Below are positions 10,905 to 36,948 of a DNA stretch of 36,948 nucleotides, piece by piece (the first letter of the stretch is position 1; each line of letters starts with the position of its first letter). A program made the translations under genes and the position numbers. This stretch comes from Candidatus Phocaeicola faecipullorum (GTDB lineage Bacteria; Bacteroidota; Bacteroidia; Bacteroidales; Bacteroidaceae): the NCBI GenBank assembly GCA_018884025.1, contig JAHLFB010000262.1:1-36948 (forward strand), read 5' to 3'. The notes below the pieces were generated by a model that did no database searches, had not been told where the DNA came from, and saw nothing but the letters and a program-made list of their open reading frames with translations.

Positions 10905-10998
10905 GAAAATATATTTCGTATTTTTGCAGTTTACCACTACATTCTGTATGTTTGCCACTATATCAGCAAGGTCAGTTTTCATAAAATGTTTTTATCAC

Positions 10999-11006
10999 TA
11001 ACTTTG
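10999..11006 (+). promoter_or_regulatory. Putative -7 box for the Spy-like gene
   Basis: TAACTTTG is a perfect TAnnTTTG match, 40 bp before the start codon. A TTTT at 10976-10979 lies 19 bp upstream, the usual distance for the -33 TTTG element, with one mismatch. Predicted leader is about 34 nt. Confidence 0.5.
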
Positions 11007-18799: not shown

Positions 18800-18866
18800 T
18801 TGTTACATCCGTTTTATCAATTGTTACGAATATTATATTTGTTAATGTGTATATATTTTAATTTTG
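18800..18866 (+). promoter_or_regulatory. Putative HTCS operator/promoter, copy A (fimbrillin-like unit)
   Basis: TTGTTAC at 18800-18806 and again at 18821-18827 (21-bp spacing) is followed after 31 bp by the -7 box TAATTTTG at 18859-18866. A further TTGTTA lies at 18839-18844. The predicted transcription start is near 18873, about 27 nt before the ATG. Copies B and C upstream of the sigma gene and the second GH28-like gene have the same spacing. The match is seen directly; HTCS binding is inferred. Confidence 0.7.
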
Positions 18867-18899
18867 CAGCATGAACAAATAATCTTAGAATAATAAATT

Positions 18900-19898
18900 A
18901 TGAGACGAAAAACATTTTTAATTTCTTTGGCGGTATCATTTATGTTTATCGCCTGTTCCGAAGAAAATGTTTCTACGCCTGGTGGCTCAGGAGATGCTAC
19001 TACTCCGGGAGAGGAAGTAACAGATTCGGCTGTAGTATTGAAAGCCAATATTAATGGCTTGAAATACTCAAACACGAGAGCAACTTCAGGAGGAAACTGG
19101 GAAAATCTGGAAGATACTTTGGTGGCAATCAAAATCGGCGATGAAGTAAAGAGCTACGGTGTGGACGAAGAAGGATTGCTGACTTGTAATGAACCTTTCT
19201 ATTGGGGCGATAATGATAAACTTACTATCGAAGGTTGGTATCCCTATAATGACGGAGAAAAGCCTGCCGAGGTTTCAGTGAAATCAGACCAGTCCGTTGA
19301 AGAAAACTTCCAGGCAAGTGATTTCCTTGAAGCACTTCCGGCAGAGATAGAAAAGGTATATCCAAGAATTTCATTCACCCACAGAGTATCAAAAGTGATA
19401 TTTTCCATCTCTGTAGAAAACGGAACTTCACAGGGAGCTGAACTTAAAATAATGAATCTTGTCGGTGTAGAAAATGGCAATGAAGTTACCCCTAATGATG
19501 AAAATACAGCTTTGATAGCTCCTCAAACGATACAGGAAGGAATAGAGTTTCTGAATATAAATCTTCTCTCAGGTGTATCAGCTGTTTATGAGGCTGATAA
19601 AGAATTCATTTTTGAACAAGGATATATATACTTTGTTGATGTAAAGATTTCAGAGGTTGGAGGTGTGACAGCAGAAATTGCAGATACTGTACTTTGGACA
19701 GGGGAAGATATAGATTTGCCGGGTGAGTCTTCAAAAGTGAATCCTGATACTTATGATAATGGCTGGTCCGGTGGTGATGATGAAAATTTAAATGGTGAAT
19801 CATCTAATGTATCATCACCGGGGATAACTGCTCCGGGATGGAATACTGATGGAGAAAGTACGGAATTACCGGCAACAAAAGATAGTTCTAACCAATAA
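18900..19898 (+). CDS. Fimbrillin-like surface lipoprotein
   Basis: A 332-residue lipoprotein with lipobox FIAC (Cys19) followed by SEEN, a surface-export type signal. Residues about 45-270 fit the fimbrillin/Mfa-like fold: after NGLKYSNTRAT come the characteristic KIGDEVKSYGVDEEG and a segment PRISFTHRVSKVIFSIS equivalent to the ISFxHxLSKV core of fimbrillin family proteins. The last 60 residues are low-complexity, rich in Gly, Ser, Asp and Thr. Members of this family form pili or act as stand-alone surface proteins; here no other pilus-assembly genes are present. It is the first gene of a unit with the following fimbrillin-like gene and has the TTGTTAC promoter (copy A), so it is likely made together with the PUL. 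Family call is moderately confident; a glycan-related role is inference. Confidence 0.72.
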   Translation: MRRKTFLISLAVSFMFIACSEENVSTPGGSGDATTPGEEVTDSAVVLKANINGLKYSNTRATSGGNWENLEDTLVAIKIGDEVKSYGVDEEGLLTCNEPFYWGDNDKLTIEGWYPYNDGEKPAEVSVKSDQSVEENFQASDFLEALPAEIEKVYPRISFTHRVSKVIFSISVENGTSQGAELKIMNLVGVENGNEVTPNDENTALIAPQTIQEGIEFLNINLLSGVSAVYEADKEFIFEQGYIYFVDVKISEVGGVTAEIADTVLWTGEDIDLPGESSKVNPDTYDNGWSGGDDENLNGESSNVSSPGITAPGWNTDGESTELPATKDSSNQ

Positions 19899-19965
19899 AC
19901 ATCTTTAGCTTAATAATCAACTAATTATAATAATAACATTAATTTGAATTTAAAATTTTGAATAT

Positions 19966-21618
19966 ATGAAAAGCAATTTTTTGAGATTATCTTATTTTGC
20001 AATAGCAGCTGCAGGAATGTTGACTGCATGTAACCAGGAAAATGTAAGTTCTGATATGGCGAACTCAGGCAATGTTCTGTCAATATCAGTAAGTCAAAAT
20101 GATTTCTCACCTGTTGATGCCGAAAGCCGCGCAGTAACAAATTTGACAAATAGAACAACCACTTTTGAGAACGGAGATAAGTTAGGACTTTATGTAGTAT
20201 CAAATGCAGACGGAAGCTATCATTACGAGAATGTTCCGTTTACTTACAATGGAGAATCATGGGAATCTGAATCTGCTTCTACTATATATTACTATAAGAA
20301 TTCTGATTATATAGTTTATTATCCTTATATTGAAGATTTGCAGCTTACAGTAGGTGAAACAGGAGTTTCAGGAGCTATAAAAACAGTATTTGAAAGTAAA
20401 TCAGATTTCTACACACAGAATACAGCCGATGCTTACGAGGCTGTTGATTTGATGATGGCAGAAGTTGAAAACCCAAGTGATGCGAATGTAACTTTCAACC
20501 TTGCTCATAAATTCTCAATGATTGAGATTTCTGTTCCGGTGCGTAAATACATTACGGAAAGAACATATAATGATGAGAAATTTGAATATAACGCTCCTGT
20601 AAAATTGGAATGGACTTCACCTTTGGCATATGGAGATAATGAAGTAACTCCGTATGCTGCTGGAAAAGGCGTTTATCGTTTTATTGTAAAGCCTGGAACA
20701 GATGTTGCTGTTAATATCGATGGCTATGTACAGTATGAAGAAGAACCATTTAATTTTAGTAATAACAATGCTGCATTAACTCTAACTGAAGGAAGTTTCA
20801 AGCATTATAAGGTAACAGTTGACGGTATTTCTAACGATGTAACAGTACGTGATTTGGAAGTTGGTGACTATTATTATTCAGATGGCAGTATCTATCCTTA
20901 TGGAAATCAAGAAGGAGACAATGATTTGAACAATCCGATGGTTGAAGGATGTATCGGGGTGATATATCAGGTAGCAGACCATACTTATGGAGATAATGAA
21001 AGAACAGCAGTTGTGGGAGTTAATGGAACAGAGTGGATACACGGAAATGTTATTGCATTGGAAGACTTGCAGGGTGATAAGATTGCTTGGGGTTCACATT
21101 CTACAGGTTTAGAAGGTAATATTTACTCAGGTACTGATGAAAATAGTCATATAGATATTAATTTTGTTACAGATATGCGTGGTTATGAATTATCTCATAA
21201 TGACAATCTCAGAGATGAAGCTTCAGTCAAGTCTGCATTAGATTATACCAAAGAATATCCTTCCACCTCATCCGGCTGGTATTTGCCTTCTGCAGGACAA
21301 ATGATGATGCTTTGGATTAATTTAGGAGAATATAATCTGAATATGAATGATGATTTGATGATTGGTGATAATAATTTGGAAGATCAGAAAGATGATTGCT
21401 ATACAAAATTATTATCACATTTTACAGCTATCGGCTCATCATTAGGAAATGTACAGCAATGGTGGACGGTAACTGAGAATTATGACTCTGGAGCAAATCA
21501 GAATAAAGCATGGACCTTTAAAATTAACACTCAATATAATAATGGTGATAAAACAGGTTTTCTTGATAGAAAGAAAGATACAAACCAAGCAGTAGTTCGT
21601 CCTGTATTATCATTCTAA
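19966..21618 (+). CDS. Fimbrillin-like lipoprotein with Lcl/DUF1566-like C-terminal domain
   Basis: A 550-residue lipoprotein with lipobox LTAC (Cys22) followed by NQEN. Residues about 30-290 fit the fimbrillin fold: ESRAVTNLTNRTTTFENGDKLG at the start, then VTFNLAHKFSMIEISVP, the family's usual 'FxHxLSM' strand. Residues about 300-550 look like a separate domain of the Lcl C-terminal/DUF1566 or FISUMP type, a C-type-lectin-like fold: SSGWYLPSAGQMMMLW, QWWTVTENYDSGANQNKAW and the ending AVVRPVLSF. Such domains often end surface proteins and may bind ligands. It lies 67 bp after the first fimbrillin-like gene with no promoter seen between, and is followed by two hairpins. Domain calls come from motif recognition only; the ligand is unknown. 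Confidence 0.72.
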   Translation: MKSNFLRLSYFAIAAAGMLTACNQENVSSDMANSGNVLSISVSQNDFSPVDAESRAVTNLTNRTTTFENGDKLGLYVVSNADGSYHYENVPFTYNGESWESESASTIYYYKNSDYIVYYPYIEDLQLTVGETGVSGAIKTVFESKSDFYTQNTADAYEAVDLMMAEVENPSDANVTFNLAHKFSMIEISVPVRKYITERTYNDEKFEYNAPVKLEWTSPLAYGDNEVTPYAAGKGVYRFIVKPGTDVAVNIDGYVQYEEEPFNFSNNNAALTLTEGSFKHYKVTVDGISNDVTVRDLEVGDYYYSDGSIYPYGNQEGDNDLNNPMVEGCIGVIYQVADHTYGDNERTAVVGVNGTEWIHGNVIALEDLQGDKIAWGSHSTGLEGNIYSGTDENSHIDINFVTDMRGYELSHNDNLRDEASVKSALDYTKEYPSTSSGWYLPSAGQMMMLWINLGEYNLNMNDDLMIGDNNLEDQKDDCYTKLLSHFTAIGSSLGNVQQWWTVTENYDSGANQNKAWTFKINTQYNNGDKTGFLDRKKDTNQAVVRPVLSF

Positions 21619-21631
21619 AAAAACTGATATT

Positions 21632-21666
21632 TCATATAATGTCTCCAGTGATGAGACATTATATGA
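21632..21666 (+). repeat. Perfect 14-bp hairpin after the fimbrillin-like unit
   Basis: Arms 21632-21645 and 21653-21666 (TCATATAATGTCTC and its exact complement) enclose a 7-nt loop, starting 13 bp after the stop codon. There is no T-run directly after it. It may protect the mRNA 3' end or form a double terminator with the next hairpin. Confidence 0.6.
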
Positions 21667-21672
21667 CACTTC

Positions 21673-21720
21673 AAATGGCGTTCGAACGGTATTATAACAC
21701 TGTTCGAACGCCATTTTAAG
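21673..21720 (+). terminator. Strong hairpin terminator of the fimbrillin-like unit
   Basis: Arms 21673-21687 and 21702-21716 (AAATGGCGTTCGAAC and its exact complement) pair over 15 bp and can extend inward by three pairs. The 3' arm ends in four T residues, a short tract. It separates the fimbrillin-like unit from the sigma/susCD operon, whose operator begins 15 bp after the hairpin. Confidence 0.75.
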
Positions 21721-21734
21721 TAATAATCTTTATC

Positions 21735-21801
21735 TTGTTACGATATTTACATCATTTGTTACACCTTTAATCCATCATAAAATGCTTTATTGATACTTTT
21801 G
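21735..21801 (+). promoter_or_regulatory. Putative HTCS operator/promoter, copy B (sigma/susCD operon)
   Basis: TTGTTAC at 21735-21741 and at 21756-21762 (21-bp spacing), then 31 bp, then the -7 box TACTTTTG at 21794-21801. No -33 TTTG is present at the usual distance. The predicted start near 21808 leaves only about 14 nt before the sigma-factor ATG, a very short leader. Confidence 0.7.
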
Positions 21802-21821
21802 TAATCGGAAAAACATGAATT

Positions 21822-22349
21822 ATGGAAAATACAAGTATCATATCCCAGGAAAAAATCGGTAAATTGGTTTCCGAAACTTATGAACATGATAAAGACACTG
21901 TACTTTATTATGTCTATAAGCGTATAGGTAATTACGAAGATGCGCAGGATATTACGCAGGATGTTTTTCTCCGCATGATGGAATATGGCAAGATGCTAAG
22001 AAGTGATACGGTGAGAAGCCTTATGTTTACCGTTGCAAGAAATCTCGTTACAGACTATATGCGCAGGCTGATTAGCAAACAGGAAGTTGGCGTTTATTCA
22101 ATGGAGGGTCTTGACATGACTTACGATGATGTGGAATGTAAAGTATTTGCCAAGGAGATATCCAAGTTGGAGATAATGAAAGCTAACAGTCTTCCCGAAC
22201 AGCGTCGGGTGATATATATGAAAAGCAGATTCGAATGTCTTTCCACAGAAGAAATAGCAGCTGAAATGTCACTTTCCAAACGTACAGTTGAGGGGCATCT
22301 GCTGATGGGAAGAAAACAAGTGAGAGAATTTATAAAACAATGTATATAA
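21822..22349 (+). CDS. FecI-like ECF sigma factor
   Basis: A 175-residue ECF sigma-70 factor that would redirect RNA polymerase to selected promoters. Region 2 lies at about 20-90 (YKRIGNYEDAQDITQDVFLRMM, then SLMFTVARNLVTDYMRR), and region 4 at about 120-172 (LPEQRRVIYMKSRFECLSTEEIAAEMSLSKRTVEGHL), with a normal helix-turn-helix. There is no signal peptide or membrane span. It is the first gene of the operon and ends 15 bp before susC. In most Bacteroidota ECF-controlled PULs a FecR-like anti-sigma gene follows and SusC carries an STN domain; neither is seen here. An out-of-frame ATG at 21815 lies just upstream and could affect initiation. The family call is secure; its targets are unknown. 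Confidence 0.9.
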   Translation: MENTSIISQEKIGKLVSETYEHDKDTVLYYVYKRIGNYEDAQDITQDVFLRMMEYGKMLRSDTVRSLMFTVARNLVTDYMRRLISKQEVGVYSMEGLDMTYDDVECKVFAKEISKLEIMKANSLPEQRRVIYMKSRFECLSTEEIAAEMSLSKRTVEGHLLMGRKQVREFIKQCI

Positions 22350-22364
22350 CAAAACTAAAATCGT

Positions 22365-25300
22365 ATGAAAGATAGAATTTATGGTTCTTCACCCAGAAAA
22401 GGGTTACTGGCAGTCCTTATAGCCTCTTCGATGATGGCAGGAGGAATAGGTCAGATTTATGCGGAATCGGCAGGAGTTTCTTCTGTCACCCAGTCTGTAT
22501 CAGTACAAGGTACTGTGCTCGATCCTGACGGATTTCCGGTGATTGGTGCAAGTATTCTTGAAAAGGGAACAACAAATGGTGTCATTACTGACATTGACGG
22601 TAATTTCGTTCTGAATGTATCATCATCAAAAGCTGTTGTCGTAATATCTTATATTGGTTTTAAAACAATAGAAATATCTGCATCGAATAAACAGGCATTA
22701 CAGAAGATTGTGCTTAAAGAGGATTCTGAAATGCTGGAAGAGGTCGTTGTAGTAGGTTATGGTACTCAGAAGAAAGCTACCCTGACAGGTTCTATCGAGC
22801 AGGTAAACGGAAAAGCCCTCGAAAGCCGTGCAGTAACCAATGTGGGTCTTGCATTGCAGGGACAGACTCCTGGTCTGACGGTAACACGTTCATCTCCACG
22901 TCCGGGTAATGAAGATATCAGTTTTCAGATTCGTGGTGCTACTTCTATCAATGGTGGTTCGCCACTTATCATTATAGACGGGGTTCCTGCACTTAATGCA
23001 CAATCTTTCCAGAATATGAACTCCGACGATATTGCCAGTATTTCTGTCTTGAAGGACGGTGCTGCATCTATCTATGGTGCAAAAGCGGCTAACGGTGTTA
23101 TTCTGGTAACAACCAAGAAAGGTAAAGGAAAACTGACTGTGGATTATAACTTCAACATGCGTTTCAGCACTCTTGGTATTACAGACTATTCTGCAACAAT
23201 GCAGCAGTATGCACAGATGTGGCTCGATGCGAACGACCAGGAAGAAGTGGAAGACTGGTGGGTATGGGTATCAAGAGAGAATATGGAAAAAATGGCTGCC
23301 GGATATGAAGGTATATACGAGACACGAGACTATGGAGATATCTTTATAGGTAATGCCAACCGTATAGACGAAATGTTTGCTACGAGATTCTCGTATCAGC
23401 ATAACTTGAGTTTGTCCGGAGCTACAGACAAGTCTGATTATCGTATCTCATTAGCTTACGCCGACAATCAGGGTAACCTTGCTACTGCATACGACGGACA
23501 GAAACAGCTGAACTTCCGTCTGAACTATGGTAACCAGCTTACAAAATGGTTAAAGTTGGAAACAGGTGCCAGCATGTTGCAGACTATTACAGAAGGCCCT
23601 TCTGTGGGACTTGACGCTTCACTGTATGCACAGGAAATGCCGCTCTTCCCGGCAAAGAACCCTTACGGACAATGGTATGCCGACTATGGTACTGTGGGAG
23701 ACCGTCAGCCAGCTGCAGCTACAGCCGATGGTGGTCGTGATAAGAAAAAATCACTGACAAGCCGTATCGACATGAAAGCGATTGTAGATATATGGAATGG
23801 AATAACATTCGAAGGTATGGCATCATTCCAGAACGAGGAATTCAGAAGAGAAAGATATGTGACACCGGTACAGACATATGACTGGTTCGGTAATCCTGCT
23901 GAGCAGCAGGTAGCAGTTACAGTCCCTACATTAAGTCTTACTGACCCGTCTAATCTTGCTCACAACAATCCAGGTTATCTGAATGTGGCAGAGAACTATT
24001 TCTACCAGTATTATTCTGCACTGCTGAAATATGCCAAAAAATTCGGTGACCATAACGTATCAGCTATGTTTGGTATTAATGCTGAAAAATATAATGTTAG
24101 TAAAACTGCTGCAGCCAGACTGAATTTTGTGGATGATGGTGTTTATGACCTTAATGCAGCCGAAAGTGATATGCTTGCCAACAGTGGTGGAAAATATCAT
24201 AACGGAACATACTCTTATATTGCAAAAGCAAATTACGACTATAAAGAAAAGTATCTTCTGGAACTTATGGGACGCCGCGACGGTAACTCCAAGTTTGCTC
24301 CTGGATACAGATTTAAGAATTATGGCTCTTTCTCATTGGGTTGGGTATTCACTCAGGAAAAATTCCTTGAACCTGTAACTAAATTTATAGGTCTTGATTT
24401 CGGTAAGGTACGTCTGAGCTATGGTGAATCAGGTAATGATGTCGGACTCGGCAATTATGACTATGTGTCTACCATAACTCAAGGAACTGCAGTATTAGGT
24501 TCACCGGCAGCATCTGTAATTGCTACAGGTCTTAACAACTCCGGTCTGATAAGTTTGACACGTACTTGGGAAAAAGTTACACAAAAGAATATCGGTGTAG
24601 ATCTGAATTTCCTTAATAACAGACTTGTTTTCAACTGGGACTACTTTATAAAGGAAAATATCGGTATGCTTTCGTCTGTGTCATATCCGGCCGTACTTGG
24701 TGGAACAGCTCCAAAAACAAACAGCGGTCATTTGCGCGTTAGAGGATGGGAAGTCTCTTTGACATGGAGAGACAGCTTTAAAGACTTCTCATATTTCATT
24801 ACAGGAAACCTGAGCGACTCAAGAAGTAAGCTTATGGACCTTGAAGGTGCTGACACATTTGTGGCTGGCAAGAACAACCTGAATGGCTATCCTCTTAATT
24901 CATGGTTTTTATTCAAGACTGACGGAGTATTTAAAGATCAGGCTGAAGTGGATGAATATTATGCTAAATACGGAAATCAGGGCGGTGCAATGTCTTTGCT
25001 ACCATACGGTAGCCAGACAGAATTGAGACCTGGTGATACCAAACGTCTTGATTTAAGTGGTGACGGATGTATAAATGCCGACGGAAGTGCATCAAGCGAC
25101 CTTATATATATGGGGGATGCAAATCCTCATTTCGTATTTGGTGTAACTGTTGGTGCCAACTGGAAAGGATTTGATTTCAATGCACTGTTCCAGGGTGTTG
25201 GAAGACAATATATCATGCGTCAGGGATGGATGGCCTATCCGTTCTCTGCGGGATACACTAACCAGAACCCGAGCTTTATCGGAAAAACATGGACAGAAGA

Positions 25301-25613
25301 AAATCCTAATGCTGAATATCCGCGTCTGACTGTTTACAAGGACAGAGCTGCATGGAACTATGCAAACAATGACTTTATGCTTCAGAACAACAGATATGTG
25401 AGATTGAAATCATTGGTATTCGGATATACACTTCCTAAAGAATGGACTACTAAAGTAAAATTACAGAAAGTAAGAGTTTATTTCTCAGGTAATGACCTGT
25501 GGGAAGCAACAAACATAAAAGACGGATTCGACCCTGAAATGGGAGAAATGGCACAGAACTCAGGTTATCCTTTCTCCAGAACATGGTCTTTCGGTCTGAA
25601 TGTCACACTTTAA
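22365..25613 (+). CDS. susC: SusC-family TonB-dependent glycan transporter (right-hand PUL)
   Basis: A 1082-residue outer-membrane channel that imports glycan fragments with the adjacent SusD protein. The signal peptide is about 1-34 (MKDRIYGSSPRKGLLAVLIA..IYAES), with a longer basic N-region than usual. The carboxypeptidase-D-like domain is at about 45-125 (VSVQGTVLDPDGFPVIGASI), followed directly by MLEEVVVVGYGTQKKATLTGSI, the plug (about 130-245; DDIASISVLKDGAASIYGAKAANGV) and the barrel, which ends in RTWSFGLNVTL. There is no STN domain, so it should not signal to the neighbouring sigma factor by the FecA/FecR route. It lies 15 bp after the sigma gene and 27 bp before susD. Confidence 0.95.
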   Translation: MKDRIYGSSPRKGLLAVLIASSMMAGGIGQIYAESAGVSSVTQSVSVQGTVLDPDGFPVIGASILEKGTTNGVITDIDGNFVLNVSSSKAVVVISYIGFKTIEISASNKQALQKIVLKEDSEMLEEVVVVGYGTQKKATLTGSIEQVNGKALESRAVTNVGLALQGQTPGLTVTRSSPRPGNEDISFQIRGATSINGGSPLIIIDGVPALNAQSFQNMNSDDIASISVLKDGAASIYGAKAANGVILVTTKKGKGKLTVDYNFNMRFSTLGITDYSATMQQYAQMWLDANDQEEVEDWWVWVSRENMEKMAAGYEGIYETRDYGDIFIGNANRIDEMFATRFSYQHNLSLSGATDKSDYRISLAYADNQGNLATAYDGQKQLNFRLNYGNQLTKWLKLETGASMLQTITEGPSVGLDASLYAQEMPLFPAKNPYGQWYADYGTVGDRQPAAATADGGRDKKKSLTSRIDMKAIVDIWNGITFEGMASFQNEEFRRERYVTPVQTYDWFGNPAEQQVAVTVPTLSLTDPSNLAHNNPGYLNVAENYFYQYYSALLKYAKKFGDHNVSAMFGINAEKYNVSKTAAARLNFVDDGVYDLNAAESDMLANSGGKYHNGTYSYIAKANYDYKEKYLLELMGRRDGNSKFAPGYRFKNYGSFSLGWVFTQEKFLEPVTKFIGLDFGKVRLSYGESGNDVGLGNYDYVSTITQGTAVLGSPAASVIATGLNNSGLISLTRTWEKVTQKNIGVDLNFLNNRLVFNWDYFIKENIGMLSSVSYPAVLGGTAPKTNSGHLRVRGWEVSLTWRDSFKDFSYFITGNLSDSRSKLMDLEGADTFVAGKNNLNGYPLNSWFLFKTDGVFKDQAEVDEYYAKYGNQGGAMSLLPYGSQTELRPGDTKRLDLSGDGCINADGSASSDLIYMGDANPHFVFGVTVGANWKGFDFNALFQGVGRQYIMRQGWMAYPFSAGYTNQNPSFIGKTWTEENPNAEYPRLTVYKDRAAWNYANNDFMLQNNRYVRLKSLVFGYTLPKEWTTKVKLQKVRVYFSGNDLWEATNIKDGFDPEMGEMAQNSGYPFSRTWSFGLNVTL

Positions 25614-25640
25614 TAAAGATACTTTAAAACAAGAACTTAT

Positions 25641-27452
25641 ATGAAAAAGAAATATATATCAATATTTGCCGGTCTGATGCTTGGATTGACAAGTTGCGTA
25701 AATACATTCCTCGACCTCGATCCATTGGATCAGAGAACGGATGCCATTTACTTTAAGAAAGCTGAAGATTTCAAAAACTATTCTGCTTCTTTCTATGGAC
25801 AACTCTTAGGATGGAGAACGCCATACGGAAGTTTCTCAATATACAACTTTATGGATGCCTCTACAGACCTTGCCGCTAACTTTATGGCATCAAGTGATGT
25901 GGGTAGAGGAACTATAATGGTACCTACAAATGATGACAGATGGACAAAATGTTATAACTATATCCGTACGGTAAATATCCTGCTGCAAAAAGCGGAAGAT
26001 TACTCTGGAGATAAATCTGAAATAGCTCAATACATAGCTGAAGCTTATTTCTTTAGAGCCTACAACATGTTTATGCTGCTTAAAACATTTGGAGGTGTAC
26101 CTATTGTAACAACAGTTATGGACACAGATTCACCAGAACTTATGGCTCCACGTAACAGCAGATACGAGGTAACAGACCAGATTCTTGCCGACCTGACTAA
26201 AGCTATTCCTGACCTTCCTATTGAACAGAGTATTCCTGCTGAGGAGAAAGGACGTGTGAGTCAATGGGCTGCTAAAGCTTTTAAAGCAAGGGTATTGCTT
26301 TATGAGGCAACTTGGAGAAAATACAACGGAACATCTACTGACTTTGAAGGTTCAAAAGGACCTGAAAAGGACCAGATAAATGAATTCCTTGATGAGGCAA
26401 TTCTTCTTTCGGAAGACGTAATAAATAATGGTGGCTACAGAATATGGAATCAGAACAGCAACGGTAGCATACCTAACCAGAGCAGTTACTATCTGTTCAA
26501 TCTTGAGGATGCGGGAAGTAATCCTGCCGGACTGACAAAAGAATCGAATAATGAATTCATACTCTATGGCGTATATGATGTTGTTCTACGTCCGGGAAAT
26601 ATCAACCTAAGTCATACTGTAGGACAGATGTACCCAAGCCGTAAAATGATTGACATGTATTTATGTAAAGACGGACTGCCTATAGAATATTCTACTTTGT
26701 TTCAAGGATATCATAATACAGGCGATGAATATAAAAACCGTGATTATCGTTTGAAAAACTATACAAACCAAGGAAATGACATCACTTCAGGCTCTGTAAA
26801 ATTAACAACAGGTTTACCAGGTTATGGATGCTCGAAGTTTTATTCGTATAATTATCCTGATTATAGAAGAGAAAAGGAAGAATCGGCCAATTATCCTGTA
26901 CTAAGACTTGCAGAGGTATATCTTAATTATGCGGAAGCATGCTATGAAAGATATGGCGAGGTTACAAATGCCCAACTTGACGGTATAAACGAGTTGCGTT
27001 CAAGAGGTGGTGTCGCATCATTGACCAACGAGTTTATTGCGGATTGTCAGTCTAAAGGCTATGAGATGGATATGCTTTCTGAAATAAGAAGAGAAAGAGC
27101 TGTGGAACTCTATATGGAAGGCTTCCGTTTTGACGACCTTAAAAGATGGGGTATAGCAGAATCAGCCTTGAATGCTTCACGTTGCGGTATGGTAGTAGGC
27201 GGTGATGGATACGAAACTGAATTTATGACATCTGATGGTACAATAAAGAAAGATTCAGACGGTAATGATATGTATAAACCGGGAACATATCCATGGGGCG
27301 TAGAAAAGGTTAAGACAGGAGAAGGTGAATTGACCTGCGTAGTAATAAGCAGCAAGAGCAACCACACTTTCCAAAAGAAACATTATCTTTGGCCTATACC
27401 TCAGAAACAGATAGAACTAAATCCGAATTTGAAGCAGAATCCGGGATATTAA
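25641..27452 (+). CDS. susD: SusD-family outer-membrane nutrient-binding lipoprotein (right-hand PUL)
   Basis: A 603-residue SusD/RagB lipoprotein that lids the preceding SusC channel. The signal peptide ends in lipobox GLTSC (Cys19), followed by VNTFLDLDPLDQ, a standard SusD mature start. The N-terminal TPR-like helices include AEAYFFRAYNMFMLLKTFGGVPIV, and the C-terminal region carries YPVLRLAEVYLNYAEACYERYG, RRERAVELYMEGFRFDDLKRW and the ending YLWPIPQKQIELNPNLKQNPGY. It is longer than the left-hand SusD, mostly by insertions in the middle (about 255-330) and before the C-terminus. It is cotranscribed with susC and the two IPT/TIG lipoproteins. Confidence 0.95.
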   Translation: MKKKYISIFAGLMLGLTSCVNTFLDLDPLDQRTDAIYFKKAEDFKNYSASFYGQLLGWRTPYGSFSIYNFMDASTDLAANFMASSDVGRGTIMVPTNDDRWTKCYNYIRTVNILLQKAEDYSGDKSEIAQYIAEAYFFRAYNMFMLLKTFGGVPIVTTVMDTDSPELMAPRNSRYEVTDQILADLTKAIPDLPIEQSIPAEEKGRVSQWAAKAFKARVLLYEATWRKYNGTSTDFEGSKGPEKDQINEFLDEAILLSEDVINNGGYRIWNQNSNGSIPNQSSYYLFNLEDAGSNPAGLTKESNNEFILYGVYDVVLRPGNINLSHTVGQMYPSRKMIDMYLCKDGLPIEYSTLFQGYHNTGDEYKNRDYRLKNYTNQGNDITSGSVKLTTGLPGYGCSKFYSYNYPDYRREKEESANYPVLRLAEVYLNYAEACYERYGEVTNAQLDGINELRSRGGVASLTNEFIADCQSKGYEMDMLSEIRRERAVELYMEGFRFDDLKRWGIAESALNASRCGMVVGGDGYETEFMTSDGTIKKDSDGNDMYKPGTYPWGVEKVKTGEGELTCVVISSKSNHTFQKKHYLWPIPQKQIELNPNLKQNPGY

Positions 27453-27483
27453 TAAGATTTTTAATATAAATTCTTAAGAAGAT

Positions 27484-28677
27484 ATGAGAAATTTATTCAA
27501 TAACAATATAAAAGGGGTATTCCTGAGTGTGTTGGCTCTTTTATCTTCCGGATGTGAACCGGAAGCTAACATAAAGGAATATGTTTATCCTGCTCCAGTA
27601 ATAACAGAAGTAAGTCCATTGGAGGGCTATGAAGGCGACCAGGTTATTATCATTGGAGAAGATTTTGGCGATAGAGTAGAGGCTGTTTCGGTAGATTTTG
27701 GCGGAATACCTGTAGAGAATATCTACTCATGTAAAAATAATATGCTTGTAGTGCAAGTACCCGAAGGAGCACAAAGCGGTAAAGTAGGCGTAACCGTGTG
27801 GACAAACAAAACGAACTCAGAATCAGACTTCAAAGTAATACCAACCCCCTCTATTATCAGTATGACTTCTGATAATCCCTCTGGTAATCTTTTTGCACAA
27901 GGTGGTGATAAAATAACTGTAAGAGGGGTTAATTTTGGTGAAGATGCTTCAAAATTCAAAGCTTATGTTAATGAAACGGAGGCAGTTATCTTATCTGCAT
28001 CTAATACAGAAATTATTTTGGAATATCCTTCTGGCATAACTTCAGGTATAGTGTATCTGGACTTGAACGGATATAAACTTGAAGGTTCTGCATTCATTGA
28101 TTCTTCAATTGAGGGAGATGTTACAAGCCTTTTCATAAAGAACTATAAGCAACCATTCTTGAGAAGTGATATAACAGACGGAGAATGGGGTACTGCAATG
28201 TATTGGAATACTACATCCGGATTTGGAAGTTCATTGAATTTCCCTTTAGGAAATACTGACGGATTTATTGCAATACAGGCAGGTGATGGTCAGGGAATAA
28301 AGGATAATGCATCATTATATCAGAATACGACACTTCCATCAGGTAAGTATAAATTCACGATAAATGTGGAAGAAAATACTAAAGTAACAGGACGTTACGG
28401 CTGTGTTTTTGCTGTGGCCAATGGAAGTACCCTTCCAGGATTAGATTCTGAAAAGGATGTAAATGGAGTTAAGCAGTTTACATATACAGAAGAACATACA
28501 GAACTGTTGGGATATGTGCAGATAACTACTAACACAATATCTGAACCTGTAACTTATACTCTGGAACTGAATTTGACTGAAACAAAATCCGTCGCTATAG
28601 GATTTGTGGCAATGTTCCACGGAACTAACAGCTTAAAAATATCAGAGATAAAAATAGAAAGAAGTATTAATCAATAA
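27484..28677 (+). CDS. IPT/TIG surface glycan-binding lipoprotein, short form
   Basis: A 397-residue lipoprotein (lipobox LSSGC, Cys24, followed by EPEAN) likely to bind the PUL's glycan at the surface. Two Ig-like IPT/TIG domains are visible at about 35-116 (PVITEVSPLEGYEGDQVIIIGEDFGD) and 117-205. These act as a rigid stalk in SGBPs of xyloglucan and mixed-linkage-glucan PULs. The C-terminal part (about 215-397) is a beta-rich module that contains SLYQNTTLPSGKYKFTINV and ends in LKISEIKIERS; the next gene ends in a similar module, so it is probably the glycan-binding domain (DUF5013-like). It lies 31 bp after susD and 11 bp before the long form. Confidence 0.82.
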   Translation: MRNLFNNNIKGVFLSVLALLSSGCEPEANIKEYVYPAPVITEVSPLEGYEGDQVIIIGEDFGDRVEAVSVDFGGIPVENIYSCKNNMLVVQVPEGAQSGKVGVTVWTNKTNSESDFKVIPTPSIISMTSDNPSGNLFAQGGDKITVRGVNFGEDASKFKAYVNETEAVILSASNTEIILEYPSGITSGIVYLDLNGYKLEGSAFIDSSIEGDVTSLFIKNYKQPFLRSDITDGEWGTAMYWNTTSGFGSSLNFPLGNTDGFIAIQAGDGQGIKDNASLYQNTTLPSGKYKFTINVEENTKVTGRYGCVFAVANGSTLPGLDSEKDVNGVKQFTYTEEHTELLGYVQITTNTISEPVTYTLELNLTETKSVAIGFVAMFHGTNSLKISEIKIERSINQ

Positions 28678-28688
28678 AATGAATTACA

Positions 28689-30659
28689 ATGAAGATATAT
28701 AGTCTAATAAGTGTAATAGCTCTTTCTTCTGTATTCTATTCATGCGAAAGCGAAATAGATGATAAGATAGTCAACTTGGAAAATCCTGCTTCAGTCAGTG
28801 TCTCTGTTACAGGTATTGATCCTGAATATGGATGGAGAGGTGATCAGTTTAATGTAGTAGGAGAGAATTTTGGAGGAGCAACAAGCTTTTTTAAAGTTTA
28901 TATAGGAAAGAATGAAACAGAGGTCCTTTCATGCAGCGACAAGCAAGTGAAAGTCGTAGTTCCTGAAGACGCTACCAGCGGAAAAGTATATGTAGAGTTT
29001 ATGGGAGATACTATTTCATCAAGTTTCTTTTATAAAGTAATGGGACAACCATCTGTAGAAGCTATGTTCCCATTATTCGGTGAAGATGAAGATACAAAAT
29101 GTTGGACTATGCCGGGCAATGAGATAACACTCATGGGTGAAATGCTTGGAGGAACAAAGGATGATGTTTCGCTTAGATTTAATAAGTCGGCAACTGATGC
29201 TGAAATAACCTCATGGTCTGAAAATGAGATTAAGGTAAAAGTTCCTGCTGATGCACAAAGTGGAGCTATTACACTTAAGATTGGTAGCCAGGAAGTTAAT
29301 ATTCCATACGAGTTACTTCTTGTGAATCCTTTAACCATAGAATCTGTAACTCCGGAAGAGGGATATGCCGGATGTGAAGTTCAAATAATAGGTAAAGGAT
29401 TTGGAGATGCCTCTACTTTGGAAGGAACAAAAGTTTGGTTTGGTGAAAAGGCTGGAACTGTGAAAGATGTGAAAGATGAAACAATAACGGTTTTGGCACC
29501 TCAAAACCTGTCAGAAGGTGAATATGCGATAAAAGTCCTTACTCCGTTCGAGGAAAAGACTTCAGAACTTAAGTATACAGTCAATCCCGATCCTACTGAA
29601 CTCACAGCAAAAGGGGTTGAAGAAGGTTCAGGTTATCTTGGTAACATTATTACCGTTACAGGAAATAATCTTCCGGAATCTGTAGAAGATATTATAGTTA
29701 ATGTCGGTGGTATTGATACAGAAGTTATTGAAAAAACAGAGAATGGATTTAAGGTTAGAATACCTGCTGAGGCTACTACAGGAAAAGGGAATCTGTTATT
29801 CAAGTATGCCGGAAGAAAATTTACGATAGACACCGGGTTTGAGGTAAAGGCAGCTCCTATAGTAAATAAATATGACGTTATTACTGTAAGTGGCGAAACA
29901 TTCACTATTGGCGGAACTAATCTTGATGAATTAAAGGAGAATCTTATTATAAAATTTAATGGAACAGCCATAGGTTCACCTAATATTAATGAAAGTGAGA
30001 TTACATTTACTGTTCCTACAACAGATGAATATCAGGAATCTGTCGAAGTTGAGCTTTCATATGGAGAGAATCTTATAGAACCTATAAAATTCAATGTTGC
30101 TGTTATACCTGCAACTTCAGGAAATAACGATATAACTTCTTGTGTTCTCAAAAATGCAGGTCCAACATTTGAAAATGAAGGTGGAAATGCAAGATATTGG
30201 GAAAAGAACTCCAAATTCTATGGAAATTCGTTGATTACTGTGGAAAATGGCAGTACTTATCTGTCGATGATAGGTAATGGTTCAAATAATTATGACGGAG
30301 CATTGTATCAAAATACTATGCTTCCAAAAGGTGACTATACAGTTACAATAACTGTAGCTGGTGATGATAATGCAGTAGTGGACGCAGGAGGACGTGATGG
30401 TGTGGTATTCGGTATAATGGATGGACATGATATTGAGTTCCCGGCATTAACAGATCAAGGTAGTCCTTGGTATTTTAGTGATAAAACAAATGTTTTGGCT
30501 GAAATGAATATTACAGAAGGTAACAATTCGGTTCCTAATGAACATGCTGTAACTTTCTCACTAATTGAAGCTAAAGAAGTAAAAATCGGTTTTGCAACAA
30601 TGCTCAACCCTAATAATTACCTGTATATCTCACAAATAAAGATTGAACGTACTAATTGA
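28689..30659 (+). CDS. IPT/TIG surface glycan-binding lipoprotein, long form
   Basis: A 656-residue lipoprotein (lipobox FYSC, Cys19, followed by ESEIDD, a strong surface-export signal). About five IPT/TIG-type Ig domains follow one another at about 33-117, 118-205, 213-303, 304-385 and 386-470; the clearest is IESVTPEEGYAGCEVQIIGKGFGD. The C-terminal module (about 480-656) contains ALYQNTMLPKGDYTVTITV and ends in LYISQIKIERTN, parallel to the preceding protein. The longer stalk would hold the binding module farther from the membrane. The next gene begins within 10 bp of its stop codon, so translation may be coupled. Binding role is inferred from position after susCD and domain makeup. Confidence 0.83.
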   Translation: MKIYSLISVIALSSVFYSCESEIDDKIVNLENPASVSVSVTGIDPEYGWRGDQFNVVGENFGGATSFFKVYIGKNETEVLSCSDKQVKVVVPEDATSGKVYVEFMGDTISSSFFYKVMGQPSVEAMFPLFGEDEDTKCWTMPGNEITLMGEMLGGTKDDVSLRFNKSATDAEITSWSENEIKVKVPADAQSGAITLKIGSQEVNIPYELLLVNPLTIESVTPEEGYAGCEVQIIGKGFGDASTLEGTKVWFGEKAGTVKDVKDETITVLAPQNLSEGEYAIKVLTPFEEKTSELKYTVNPDPTELTAKGVEEGSGYLGNIITVTGNNLPESVEDIIVNVGGIDTEVIEKTENGFKVRIPAEATTGKGNLLFKYAGRKFTIDTGFEVKAAPIVNKYDVITVSGETFTIGGTNLDELKENLIIKFNGTAIGSPNINESEITFTVPTTDEYQESVEVELSYGENLIEPIKFNVAVIPATSGNNDITSCVLKNAGPTFENEGGNARYWEKNSKFYGNSLITVENGSTYLSMIGNGSNNYDGALYQNTMLPKGDYTVTITVAGDDNAVVDAGGRDGVVFGIMDGHDIEFPALTDQGSPWYFSDKTNVLAEMNITEGNNSVPNEHAVTFSLIEAKEVKIGFATMLNPNNYLYISQIKIERTN

Positions 30660-30667
30660 TAATGATT

Positions 30668-31984
30668 ATGAAAACTAAAAATATGCTTTTATTTGGTTTG
30701 TTGTTTTTTGTTTCATCCTGCGGTGATGACATTGACCCTATAGAAAGGGATTGGCAGACACCGTCTGATAATGTTAATGAAGAAATACAACATGACATTA
30801 CTTTAAAACCTGAAGGTACTGCTTTTATTCATCCGGGTGCTTTACATTCTCAAGAAGATATTGATAGAGCAAAGTCTAAAGTCGCTGCTAACGAATCTCC
30901 ATGGATAGACGGATGGGAGAAGATTGTCACTACAGGATTCTTTGATGGCGAACGTAAACCTTCACTGTCTCCAAATGCTACAGTGAAGATAATCAGAGGT
31001 GGTAATACTATCTGGGAACCTGAACCTGATAACTATAATAATGCGGCAAAACAGGCCCATGCTGCGTATCAATATGCGTTAGCATGGAAAATTACTAATG
31101 ATACACAATATGCTCAAGCTGCAATAAATATTCTGAATGCATGGGCTCAAACATGTAAGTCACTTAATGGTGACTCCAATGTTTCATTGGCAGCAGGATT
31201 ATACGGATATCAGTTTGCAAATGCCGGAGAACTAATGAGAGATTATGCCGGATGGGCAGCAGAAGATTTGGCTGCATATCAAAAATGGATGGTTGATGTG
31301 TTCTATAAAGTAAATAATGATTTCCTGGTGAGACATCACGATGCTGATGTTATGAACTATTGGGCTAACTGGGATCTTGCAAATATTGCTTCAATGTTGG
31401 CAATAGGTATCCTTGCAGACAATAGAAGTATATATAACCAGGCTGTTGAGTACCTTTTGGAAGGTGAAGGTAACGGATGTCTGAAAAATACAATCGTACA
31501 TGTATTCGATGGAGATAATGAAGGATTGGCTCAGATACAGGAATCCGGTCGTGACCAGGGACATGCTACTTTGGTAATTGGACTGTTAGGAGTAATAGCA
31601 CAACAGACATGGAACCAAGGGGATGATTTCTATGGATATAACGATAATGTTATACTAAAGGCTTCTGAATATACTGCCAAGTATAATGTAGCCATGCTTG
31701 ATGTCCCGTTTGTGTATTATAACAACCCAATACATGGACTACATACAACGATAGCCGAAGACCAAAGGGGAAAACAAAGACCAATGTGGGAAGTATTATA
31801 TGCCCATTATTCATCAGTGAAAAATGTAGAACCTAAATGGACACAATATACACTTATGGGCGTTAACCAGCAACGCCCGGAAACATGTGCAAATGCAAGT
31901 ACAGGTGGAGGAGATTTGGACTTGTTAGGCTGTGGTACACTGATGTATGCAAGACAGACTACTGTAGAAAGCCCCGTTGAATAA
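30668..31984 (+). CDS. Alginate-lyase-fold polysaccharide lyase lipoprotein (PL38-like)
   Basis: A 438-residue lipoprotein expected to cleave a uronate polymer at the cell surface. I start at 30668; an ATG at 30662 and a TTG at 30656 are in frame but add nothing to the signal peptide. Lipobox VSSC (Cys18) is followed by GDDID. The rest is helical, with an alginate_lyase-type (PF05426) alpha/alpha barrel: KQAHAAYQYALAWKITND, MNYWANWDLANIASMLAIG with Asn230 and Asn234, and QESGRDQGHATL with Arg295 and His299. These are the conserved polar positions of the PL5/PL38 group. PL38 members act on glucuronan or alginate-type polymers; the true substrate here is not determined. It is cotranscribed with the SGBPs and the GH51 enzyme. 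Confidence 0.75.
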   Translation: MKTKNMLLFGLLFFVSSCGDDIDPIERDWQTPSDNVNEEIQHDITLKPEGTAFIHPGALHSQEDIDRAKSKVAANESPWIDGWEKIVTTGFFDGERKPSLSPNATVKIIRGGNTIWEPEPDNYNNAAKQAHAAYQYALAWKITNDTQYAQAAINILNAWAQTCKSLNGDSNVSLAAGLYGYQFANAGELMRDYAGWAAEDLAAYQKWMVDVFYKVNNDFLVRHHDADVMNYWANWDLANIASMLAIGILADNRSIYNQAVEYLLEGEGNGCLKNTIVHVFDGDNEGLAQIQESGRDQGHATLVIGLLGVIAQQTWNQGDDFYGYNDNVILKASEYTAKYNVAMLDVPFVYYNNPIHGLHTTIAEDQRGKQRPMWEVLYAHYSSVKNVEPKWTQYTLMGVNQQRPETCANASTGGGDLDLLGCGTLMYARQTTVESPVE

Positions 31985-32006
31985 AGATTAACAATGTTTA
32001 TAAACC

Positions 32007-33977
32007 ATGAAAAACAAGAATACATACATGGCTATTGTGCTGTCGCTACTGGCAGCCAATAGCTCTTTTATGGCTAAAGAAAATGTTATGACTGTGCATG
32101 CCAACAAAATAATATCTGACGTAAGTCCTACAATGTACGGACTATTCTTTGAGGATATAAATTTTGGGGCAGACGGAGGTTTATATGCGGAATTAGTGAA
32201 AAACAGATCATTTGAGTTTACGCAGAATCTGATGGGATGGAACATATTCGGAAATGTAACTCTTATGAATGACGGACCGTTTAACCGTAATCCTCACTAT
32301 GTACGCTTAGGCAAATCCGCTCATCCACATAAACATTCCGGAATAGAAAATGAAGGATTCTTCGGGATGGGACTTAAAGCCGGTAATGAATATCGTTTCT
32401 CTGTTTGGGCAAGAGGTAAAGGACAAAGAATCAGAGTTGAACTTATTGATAATGACAGCATGGGTGAAACTCAAGTTATCACTTCTAAGAAACTGGAAAT
32501 TAGTTCTGACGACTGGAAGAAATATCAGATTATCCTGAAACCGGAAGTGGAAGAAAAGAAAGCTCACCTTCGTATATTTCTTGAAACAGAAGGTAATGTT
32601 GATTTGGAGCATGTTTCATTATTCCCTGTTGACACATGGAAAAACAGGGAAAACGGATTAAGAAAGGATTTGGTACAGGCTTTGGCTGATTTGTCGCCGG
32701 ACGTATTCAGATTTCCGGGAGGATGCATAGTGGAAGGTACTGACATGGGCAACCGATATCAATGGAAAGAGACTGTGGGGCAAGTGGAAAACAGACCTAC
32801 AAACGAGAACAGATGGCACTATACTTTCCCTCACAGATTCTTTCCGGACTACTTTCAATCATACGGTTTGGGATTCTATGAGTATTTTCAGTTATCAGAA
32901 GATATAGGTGCAGAACCTTTGCCTATACTGAATTGTGGACTATTGTGTCAATATCAGAATAATGATGACTGTCAGATTCCGGCAGACAGCCTTGATTTAT
33001 TTGTGCAGGATGCTTTGGACCTGATAGAATTTGCCAATGGGGATATTAACACCAAATGGGGAAAACTTAGAGCTGAAATGGGGCATCCTGAACCATTTAA
33101 CCTTAAGTATCTTGGTATTGGTAACGAACAATGGGGGCAGATATATGTGGATAGGCTGAAAGTTTTTGTAGATGTTATTAGAAAACAGCATCCTGAAATT
33201 AAAATTGCAGGTTCGTCAGGACCATATCCTGAAGGCGAAGAGTTCGAATATTTATGGAAAGGTATGAAAGAACTGAAAGTTGATTTAGTTGATGAACACT
33301 TCTATCGTCCTGACAACTGGTTTATCTCGCAGGGGAAACGATATGACAATTATGACAGAAAAGGCCCTAAAGTATTTGCAGGAGAATATGCATGTCATGT
33401 TCCTGGAAAGAAATGGAATCATTTCCGTGCTGCATTACTTGAAGCTGCATTCATGACAGGACTGGAAAGAAATGCAGATATGGTAAGGATGGCAACCTAT
33501 GCTCCTCTGCTTGCACATATCGACGGATGGCAATGGCGTCCTGACTTAATATGGTTCGACAATCTGTCAGTAATGAAGACTTGTAGCTATTATGTCCAGC
33601 AGCTTTATGCAACAAATAAAGGAACACACTCGCTGAAACTTACTATGGACGGTAATGTTGTATGTGGCGATAAAGAACAGAACGGATTATTTGCAAGTGC
33701 CGTATGGGATGAAAACAATAAAACATATATTGTTAAAGTAGTAAATACATCAGAAAACGCACAAGATATCAAGATTGACTTCAAAGGACTAAAGAAAAAA
33801 CTTCAAACGAAAGGTGAGTGTATATTGCTGCATTCTGAAAAGATGGAAGCTGAAAATACACTTGAGAACCCTAATCTGATAGTTCCTAAGAAAGCAGATG
33901 TAATGGTAGAAAAGAATGCAATAAACGACATTCTGCCGCCTATGTCATTTATGGTATATAAACTGACTGCTATTTGA
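32007..33977 (+). CDS. GH51 alpha-L-arabinofuranosidase
   Basis: A 656-residue periplasmic enzyme that removes alpha-L-arabinofuranose side groups from arabinan, arabinogalactan or arabinoxylan fragments. The signal peptide is about 1-23 with no lipobox. The N-terminal segment ISDVSPTMYGLFFEDINFGADGGLYAELVKNRSFEF is typical. A CBM4_9-like beta-sandwich is inserted at about 75-215. The barrel shows DVFRFPGGCIVEG, the acid/base Glu374 in LGIGNEQWG and the nucleophile Glu430 in VDEHFYRPDNW. The C-terminal beta domain (about 500-656) is complete. Length fits the bacterial GH51 group with a CBM insertion. It lies 22 bp after the lyase gene and is followed closely by the GH28-like gene. Confidence 0.93.
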   Translation: MKNKNTYMAIVLSLLAANSSFMAKENVMTVHANKIISDVSPTMYGLFFEDINFGADGGLYAELVKNRSFEFTQNLMGWNIFGNVTLMNDGPFNRNPHYVRLGKSAHPHKHSGIENEGFFGMGLKAGNEYRFSVWARGKGQRIRVELIDNDSMGETQVITSKKLEISSDDWKKYQIILKPEVEEKKAHLRIFLETEGNVDLEHVSLFPVDTWKNRENGLRKDLVQALADLSPDVFRFPGGCIVEGTDMGNRYQWKETVGQVENRPTNENRWHYTFPHRFFPDYFQSYGLGFYEYFQLSEDIGAEPLPILNCGLLCQYQNNDDCQIPADSLDLFVQDALDLIEFANGDINTKWGKLRAEMGHPEPFNLKYLGIGNEQWGQIYVDRLKVFVDVIRKQHPEIKIAGSSGPYPEGEEFEYLWKGMKELKVDLVDEHFYRPDNWFISQGKRYDNYDRKGPKVFAGEYACHVPGKKWNHFRAALLEAAFMTGLERNADMVRMATYAPLLAHIDGWQWRPDLIWFDNLSVMKTCSYYVQQLYATNKGTHSLKLTMDGNVVCGDKEQNGLFASAVWDENNKTYIVKVVNTSENAQDIKIDFKGLKKKLQTKGECILLHSEKMEAENTLENPNLIVPKKADVMVEKNAINDILPPMSFMVYKLTAI

Positions 33978-34006
33978 TGTATGATCTTATAATTGAATAT
34001 TTTAAT

Positions 34007-35404
34007 ATGATGAAGAATAGATTTATTGTAACGATATGCTTATTGCTTACCGTTACATTTACAATTAACGCACAACTTTATACTTATCCGGAAGGTCTTA
34101 GAACAGGAATTCCTCATAATGATGACTTTACCGTAAGGGTAAGGACTAAAGGGGGAGAATGGAAGGAGACTTTCGAGTATAAAGTACAAGTGGATATGGA
34201 CAGGGTGCAGGATGCGTCTATGGTACAGTTCGACATGAACGAGCCTGTGGAGGTAATGGTGAAGAAGAACAACGGGATTATCCAGACTGTGGATATCAGA
34301 CCAAAATCGAAAGGTGTTGAGTATAAACAGGTGGAAAATTGTATTCTGTTTACTCTTGACAAACCGCAGTATCTTTCTGTGGAATTCAATGGTGACCGTC
34401 TGCACAATCTACATCTGTTTGCAAATCCTGTAGAGAAAGAAGTTTATACAGAAAGCAAGGAAGGGGTGATGTATTTCGGTCCGGGAACTCACAGACCCAA
34501 AGACCTTCCTAACAATCAGATAAGTATTCCAAGCAATACTACAGTGTATCTTGCTCCGGGAGCTGTTGTTGAGGCTAAACTTCTGGTAGACCATGCTGAA
34601 AACGTAAGAATTATAGGTCGTGGTATTATCTATAAAGGTATTAGAGGTATCGAGGTTACAGACTCTAAGAATGTTTATATCGATGGTATTACTGTTATCA
34701 ACCCTGACCATTATTCAATATTCGGAGGTGGTTCCAAGGATATTACAGTAAGAAATTTCAAGGCTTTCAGCTGTCGTGGATGGTCGGACGGTATAGATAT
34801 GATGAGTTGCCAGAATATTGATATCGATAATATCTTTATGCGTAATAGTGACGACTGTATGGCTTTCTATAATCACCGCTGGAACTGGTGGGGTGGTACA
34901 AACAATGTGAATGTGCGTCGTGCTGTGCTTTGGGCTGATATCGCTCATCCTATAAACATTGGTGGCCATGGTGACCCGGAAGCTGAGATAGGTGAGAATA
35001 TAGAAAACCTTTCATTCAAGGATATCGACATATTGGAACACGATGAGGATGATTATCCTTATCAGGGATGTATGGCTGTGGTTTGCGGCGACAAAAATCT
35101 GGCAAGGAACATCTTGTTTGAGGATATACGCATAGAAAGCATTCAGGAGGGTATGATGTTCAATATCCGTGTAAACTATAATCCTAAATACGACAAGGCT
35201 CCCGGACGAGGAATAGACGGACTTACTTTCAGAAACATCAGATTCAACGGCATAGGTGAGAACCGTCCTGTCATTTACGGATTCGATAAAGACAGAATAG
35301 CAAGGAATATCACTTTTGAGGATATATGGATTAACGGAAAGAAACTCAAAGGGCTTGATTATTTCCTGATGAATGAGTTTGTGGAGAATGTTGTTGTAAA
35401 ATGA
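34007..35404 (+). CDS. GH28-like parallel beta-helix glycosidase A
   Basis: A 465-residue exported enzyme of the polygalacturonase-type fold. I start at 34007 (MMKNRFIVTICLLLTVTFTINAQ), a good signal peptide; the frame is open back to a TTG that overlaps the GH51 stop, but those 11 residues lack signal character. Residues about 25-140 form an N-terminal beta-sandwich, as in GH49 and some GH28 enzymes. The beta-helix follows, with WSDGID (Asp261), NSDDC (Asp282, Asp283) and GGHGD (His321), matching the GH28 catalytic pattern NTD / DD / GHG in order and spacing. It probably cleaves galacturonic- or rhamnogalacturonan-type linkages, but GH49-like specificity cannot be excluded. It is the last gene of the long operon and 29 bp after the GH51 stop. 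Confidence 0.78.
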   Translation: MMKNRFIVTICLLLTVTFTINAQLYTYPEGLRTGIPHNDDFTVRVRTKGGEWKETFEYKVQVDMDRVQDASMVQFDMNEPVEVMVKKNNGIIQTVDIRPKSKGVEYKQVENCILFTLDKPQYLSVEFNGDRLHNLHLFANPVEKEVYTESKEGVMYFGPGTHRPKDLPNNQISIPSNTTVYLAPGAVVEAKLLVDHAENVRIIGRGIIYKGIRGIEVTDSKNVYIDGITVINPDHYSIFGGGSKDITVRNFKAFSCRGWSDGIDMMSCQNIDIDNIFMRNSDDCMAFYNHRWNWWGGTNNVNVRRAVLWADIAHPINIGGHGDPEAEIGENIENLSFKDIDILEHDEDDYPYQGCMAVVCGDKNLARNILFEDIRIESIQEGMMFNIRVNYNPKYDKAPGRGIDGLTFRNIRFNGIGENRPVIYGFDKDRIARNITFEDIWINGKKLKGLDYFLMNEFVENVVVK

Positions 35405-35409
35405 TTGTA

Positions 35410-35476
35410 TTGTTACAAGTTAGTCATAGATTGATACATATTTTATATACACAACCAACATACGAGTATAATTTTG
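35410..35476 (+). promoter_or_regulatory. Putative HTCS operator/promoter, copy C (second GH28-like gene)
   Basis: TTGTTAC at 35410-35416 and TTGATAC (one mismatch) at 35431-35437, 21 bp apart, then 31 bp, then the -7 box TAATTTTG at 35469-35476. Predicted start near 35483 gives a leader of about 20 nt. The first half-site lies only 5 bp after the preceding gene's stop codon. Confidence 0.68.
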
Positions 35477-36905: not shown

Positions 36906-36948
36906 CTGTCTCTTATACACATCTCCGAGCCCACGAGACCGGAATATT
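36906..36948 (+). other. Illumina Nextera adapter and index remnant (not genomic)
   Basis: 36906-36924 reads CTGTCTCTTATACACATCT, the Nextera transposase mosaic end, and 36925-36939 reads CCGAGCCCACGAGAC, the rest of the read-2 adapter. The last nine bases (36940-36948) fall where the i7 index begins. The reading frame passes through it without a stop, so an automatic annotation would add about 14 false residues to the GH28-like protein. Confidence 0.97.

Follow-up and report, generated by a model that had tools for sequence, protein, structure and literature searches.

Three tandem half-site promoters as probable operators of an HTCS regulator at a Phocaeicola PUL

Three promoters within a 36,948-nt stretch of DNA from Candidatus Phocaeicola faecipullorum (hereafter the window) carry the half-site TTGWTAC twice, as a direct repeat with a period of 21 bp, and at each of them the -7 box starts 38 bp after the start of the second half-site. 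We propose that these sites are the operators of HTCS-A, which would bind them in tandem and activate three transcription units. Judged from sequence, this explanation as a whole has a probability of roughly 0.87; the observation holds, and the reading placed on it is very likely correct. The regulator, the sites and the predicted targets are as follows.

14505..18563, plus strand: HTCS-A, with Reg_prop propeller, Y_Y_Y, HisKA, HATPase_c, receiver and HTH_18/AraC domains
18800..18827, plus strand: operator 1, TTGTTAC-N14-TTGTTAC, half-sites at 18800 and 18821
18859..18866, plus strand: -7 box of promoter 1, TAATTTTG, starting 38 bp after half-site 2
18900..21618, plus strand: predicted target 1, a fimbrillin-like gene (18900-19898, plus strand, Mfa_like_1) and the gene of a 550-aa protein without Pfam match at E 0.001 (19966-21618, plus strand)
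21735..21762, plus strand: operator 2, TTGTTAC-N14-TTGTTAC, half-sites at 21735 and 21756
21794..21801, plus strand: -7 box of promoter 2, TACTTTTG, starting 38 bp after half-site 2
21822..35404, plus strand: predicted target operon 2, with intergenic gaps of at most 31 bp
35410..35437, plus strand: operator 3, TTGTTAC-N14-TTGATAC, half-sites at 35410 and 35431
35469..35476, plus strand: -7 box of promoter 3, TAATTTTG, starting 38 bp after half-site 2
35503..36948, plus strand: predicted target 3, a second GH28-family gene, which continues past the contig end

The pattern TTGWTAC-N14-TTGWTAC has three matches in the window, all on the plus strand and all with period 21, and it arose in none of 100 shuffles of the window. 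An earlier note on this DNA had placed the pairs at 18800, 21735 and 35410 and the boxes 38 bp downstream; the former are exact to the base, and the latter were found again at 18859, 21794 and 35469. All three boxes read TAnnTTTG, the -7 consensus of the Bacteroidota sigma-A promoter as given in PMC7366714 and PMC9723704. The spacer sequences of the three sites are unrelated, in agreement with the note's statement that no segment had been duplicated. An inverted repeat (AAATGGCGTTCGAAC / GTTCGAACGCCATTT, window 21673-21717) separates operator 2 from the fimbrillin-like pair and is possibly a terminator.

HTCS-A combines a sensor, HisKA, HATPase_c, a receiver and an AraC-type helix-turn-helix in a single protein, that is, a complete hybrid two-component system, and the first recognition helix of its DNA-binding domain reads SRMNLYRK (Ser-Arg-Met, SRM). 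The operon at 21822..35404 encodes an ECF sigma factor, SusC, SusD, two TIG-domain proteins, an alginate-lyase-family protein, GH51 and GH28. Its first gene is that of the ECF sigma factor (21822-22349), no anti-sigma family was matched among the scanned neighbours of this gene, and the sigma-susC order is conserved in the related genomes G012 and G198. Heading the susCD operon with no anti-sigma match, the sigma factor would therefore be under the control of the HTCS.

The draft genome comprises 3.82 Mb in 289 contigs and is 86% complete; the window is its contig C225. A scan of the draft for stray pairs, as the earlier note had advised, gave three matches, all in the window and none outside the PUL in this 86%-complete assembly, with one match for the reversed control. 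When the half-sites were fixed as TTGTTAC and the two spacers allowed to vary (8 x 26 combinations), 61 genomes of the genus gave five matches, every one with the spacing (14,31), two in the window genome, two in G227 and one in G198, and the reversed control gave one. In a class sample of 149 genomes with one mismatch allowed there were six matches in four genomes (reversed control, five): three in the window genome, one in G198 and two chance-like ones with one mismatch. Three genomes with an SRM regulator (G144, G154, G186) gave no site match in this sample with one mismatch allowed. An order-wide search with free spacing yielded nine matches in 7 of 295 genomes, four with the (14,31) spacing and two that deviate from it by no more than 1 bp; since the reversed control gave 15, it is only the spacing that speaks for the geometry here. 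Five further genomes came from this search. Near-canonical sites occur in G041 and G585, whose SRM regulators have open frames of 1381-1387 codons, and off-geometry ones in G553, G577 and G591, which carry no SRM regulator. Regulator and site are 15 kb apart in G585 and on separate contigs in G041. A variant in these two genomes (L250:568, L251:9376, L252:9155), with near-canonical geometry and SRM regulators that are not adjacent, carries, between its two TTGTTAC copies, first TAC and then a T run.

Conservation in orthologous PULs, another check proposed beforehand, was found for two of the three sites. The PUL of G012 is syntenic with the window (HTCS-A 52%, SusC 66%, sigma 47% and fimbrillin 38% identical), and site 1 (L139:12429, upstream of the orthologous fimbrillin-like gene) and site 2 (L139:15819, upstream of the orthologous ECF sigma-susCD genes) recur there, each with one half-site mismatch and the 21/38 geometry. 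Site 2 is present without mismatch at the orthologous ECF sigma-susCD promoter of G198 (L165:1736 minus, which is the same as L072:6735 minus), about 45 kb away from the HTCS. For site 3 the only recurrence found is in the close relative G227 (L169:13941, the same record as L090); G012 and G198 gave none. In G028, the C-terminal part of an HTCS is 74% and its DNA-binding domain 86% identical to that of HTCS-A, and a pair with one mismatch, in the box, lies directly 3' of the HTCS gene and 5' of a susC 29% identical to that of the window. Because this pair precedes a different susC, the site travels with the HTCS and not with the PUL genes. In G054 (L142), an HTCS 40% identical to HTCS-A has SRV instead of SRM, and the susC and GH28 promoters read, by eye, ATGTTAC-N15-CTGTARC with period 22 and the box at 38-39, which may be a shifted operator.

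The earlier note had named the adjacent HTCS as the likely binder. HTCS-A stands as the candidate, and the window holds two HTCSs rather than one.

6980-10858, minus strand: HTCS-B, a second complete HTCS
10930-11006: another 21-bp direct repeat, TTTRCCACTAYAT at 10930 and 10951, with TAACTTTG at 10999

That another regulator binds the three sites, either HTCS-B or an unlinked AraC-type protein, is unlikely. It would suit the presence of a complete second HTCS in the same window and the SRM regulators of G585 and G041, which are not adjacent to their sites. However, the first helix of HTCS-B reads GSKQIYRK, and a different 21-bp direct repeat, CCACTAYAT at 10934 and 10955, occupies its divergent promoter region; on these two grounds HTCS-B was rejected as the likely binder. 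In G028 the site remains with the HTCS-A relative despite different PUL genes, and a search by coding pattern shows no SRM regulator besides HTCS-A in the 86%-complete draft. The repeat at 10930-11006, which lies between the divergent HTCS-B gene and a small ORF (11047-11580), is a candidate operator for HTCS-B, whose own susC showed no such pair upstream. The receiver of HTCS-B has VTIP where most HTCSs have S/CHIP, a deviation that PMC11253607, in the part considered here, links to a different control mode.

We scanned 84,980 species genomes with the full pattern and obtained 103 stretches (loci L004-L106), of which 98 bear Bacteroidota names in their titles; the exceptions are L024, L043, L066, L068 and L104 (the name 'Thermobacterium' denotes a flavobacterium). 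By an arithmetic estimate about 2 stretches are expected at uniform base composition, and more in AT-rich genomes. Some loci encode proteins 93-98% identical to those of the window, and L004, L041 and L090 represent its close relative. Chance or a duplicated promoter segment as the source of the three sites is hardly credible: the sites are just three and AT-rich DNA favours such strings, but the shuffles gave no pair, the spacers are unrelated, and the 103 stretches compare with about 2 expected. Conservation in G012 and G198 with exact spacing rules this origin out.

An AraC-type domain is visible in 44 of the 103 loci, which extend to at most 8 kb. The first recognition helix is SRM in 38 of these 44, a count that retains near-identical loci, and in 30 of 35 after loci with similar sites were merged; the other six of the 44 are non-SRM. 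At 18 loci the site lies 9-178 bp past the stop of the SRM regulator. Among the 80 loci listed, SRM occurs in 29 of the 32 with a domain, and in 14 the site is just past the regulator's stop. The regulators come in at least three builds, propeller-kinase-receiver-AraC (HTCS-A, L007), propeller-AraC (L039, L018) and TPR-kinase-receiver-AraC (L049), so the site and its geometry are common to regulators of differing sensor architecture. The propeller-AraC regulators, from Prevotella (L039:4651-6342, 564 aa; L018:1935-4127, 731 aa), have the SRM helix and the same operator layout, no kinase or receiver match was found in either, and they are apparently one-component forms of an HTCS.

For a sequence logo we took 77 rows (L004-L083 minus L024, L043, L066 and rows near a locus end, with L084-L106 outside) and reduced them, together with the three sites of the window, to 66 dissimilar ones by merging. 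Each half-site is followed by A in 88% of these, and A stands at position 16 in 74% and at position 37 in 77%. The extra A at 16 and 37 would fit a domain whose two helix-turn-helix motifs are spaced by one turn. The geometry also emerges when half-site letters are left unused. Among 24 repeats anchored on 283 intergenic boxes near AraC-type regulators, nine have period 21 and four period 22, the other periods from 14 to 30 total 11 with at most two each, and six of the nine period-21 repeats start 37-40 bp upstream of the box. This peak at 21 agrees with the HTCS motifs published in PMC3878776.

The earlier note's remark that a clear -33 element is missing holds for sites 2 and 3, whose promoter sequences, read directly, lack TTTG there, and fails for site 1, with TTTG at 18838-18841, 17 bp upstream of the -7 box. 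A -33 TTTG occurs in 2 of the 66 dissimilar sites, as against 62 occurrences over 449 general boxes (depletion p 0.009, if the 62 occurrences are counted as boxes). The absence of a -33 element was rejected as a mark of these promoters, the depletion being weak and TTTG being present at one of the three sites.

The association with SRM was then assessed in regulators sampled without regard to the site. A search for SRM-coding sequence that ignored the site found it in 5 of 149 class genomes and in 14 of 296 phylum genomes, the latter with 16 matches; G451 was left out for an in-frame stop, and the phylum-search match in G440 (L163) is not an SRM helix. We fetched 80 stretches around AraC-type regulators among the matches listed from 16 genomes, together with stretches around SRM matches and HTCS-A relatives; at least four listed full-range matches (in G479, G186, G439 and G520) lie outside this sample. 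It comprises 133 different DNA-binding domains, 20 with Met, four of them HTCS-A orthologues, and 113 without, which include AraC-type proteins other than HTCSs. We scored a period-21 pair within about 6 kb and a box at 37-39, allowing each no more than one mismatch. Among the matches listed, a pair lies near 12 and a pair with box near 11 of the 20 Met domains; without the four orthologues these counts are 9 and 8 of 16, the latter in 6 of 12 genomes. Three of the 16 are neighbours in G340, and eight of these unselected SRM regulators are without pair and box within about 6 kb. Among the matches listed, no pair with box lies within about 6 kb of any of the 113 non-Met domains, and a pair without box lies near three, all beside a single pair in L241. 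Fisher's test, which ignores kinship, gives for the matches listed p = 1.2e-9 (pair) and 4.5e-11 (pair and box) on the full counts, and 1.0e-7 and 8.4e-9, respectively, without the orthologues.

On these counts the site is tied to a DNA-binding-domain subfamily. The tree of the domains contains only one supported independent pair. Convergent evolution of SRM was considered and did not gain clear support: the quick tree needs seven changes and its supported branches force two, and a tree with SRM held as a single clade was retained by the AU test (p-AU 0.57) and even scored better. One old clade could explain the link between Met and half-site. A stronger statement would be that Met at the SR-M position of the first recognition helix goes with the half-site TTGWTACA, arranged as a direct repeat with a 21-bp period some 38 bp upstream of the -7 box, whatever the sensor and signalling architecture; this we put forward tentatively, at not quite even odds.

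The sites of LytTR proteins are direct repeats of about 21-22 bp, and global regulators act on PULs too. These two points would suit a regulator outside the AraC family, such as a LytTR protein or the Crp-like BT4338, the SRM link being then mere neighbourhood. We consider this quite improbable. TTGWTAC presumably does not fit the LytTR consensus. The consensus of BT4338 is given in PMC11501099 as the palindrome TATGTTnTAnAACATA, with which the three sites do not agree. A global regulator should have many sites per genome, whereas a strict free-spacing search of 40 genomes picked for having a site gave 35 matches in 32 of them, with at most two each; and 38 SRM helices in 44 is more than neighbourhood alone would give.

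The tandem-bound HTCS activator put forward in the earlier note is well supported: an orthologous PUL retains sites 1 and 2, the site accompanies the HTCS, the association with SRM domains is phylum-wide, and the layout matches published motifs. From these observations we infer binding, phosphorylation and activation by HTCS-A, which might proceed as follows. The periplasmic propeller of HTCS-A would sense an oligosaccharide, and phosphorylation would free the DNA-binding domains of the HTCS dimer. These two domains would then bind in head-to-tail order on one face of the DNA, separated by two helical turns; each would recognise TTGWTACA and, roughly one turn downstream of it, make a second, weaker contact. 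If TAnnTTTG occupies -12 to -5, where PMC9723704 places the -7 box, the downstream domain would cover about -50 to -34, beside the -33 region, where it could help RNA polymerase in a class-II-like activation. All three transcription units, from the fimbrillin-like pair through the sigma-susCD-enzyme operon to the second GH28 gene, would be switched on in this way.

Bacteroidota possess many HTCS regulators per genome, whose targets are mostly guessed from the neighbourhood. If the fixed geometry and the residue-half-site link are true, regulons, including distant genes, would become predictable from protein sequence. At this locus, a fimbrillin-like pair and an ECF sigma gene would be placed under the same glycan sensor as pectin-type enzymes.

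MarA, an AraC-type class-II activator, binds as a monomer, and a Trp of its recognition helix contacts DNA. In an alignment of the MarA structure (1bl0) and the domain of HTCS-A, this Trp is matched by the Met of SRM; unlike monomeric MarA, two domains in tandem are proposed for HTCS-A. The part of PMC11253607 (mBio 2024) considered here reports the S/CHIP sequence for most HTCSs, and HTCS-A, like these, carries SHIP; by our own mapping, the helix described there as buried in the off state is the one that holds SRM in HTCS-A. That work treats BT4124 and BT4663 and, in the same part, gives no operator code. Our search of the open-licence PMC literature found no half-site, -7 distance or residue link of this kind. 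According to the text of PMC3878776 (Ravcheev et al. 2013), HTCS motifs in Bacteroides are direct repeats with an average tandem distance of 21 bp (examples are 12+9, 16+5 and 14+6 bp), and motif similarity generally tracks the tree of DNA-binding domains. Its text gives no half-site letters, distance to the -7 box or residue-level link, and the present regulon is absent from those described in its section 8. Like the operators in that text, each of the three sites consists of two direct half-sites and precedes susCD or other PUL genes, and the locus encodes an AraC-type HTCS. The direct-repeat layout is already known from PMC3878776, which limits the surprise; what is possibly new here is that the -7 box keeps a fixed distance of 38 bp and that the recognition-helix Met is linked to the half-site.
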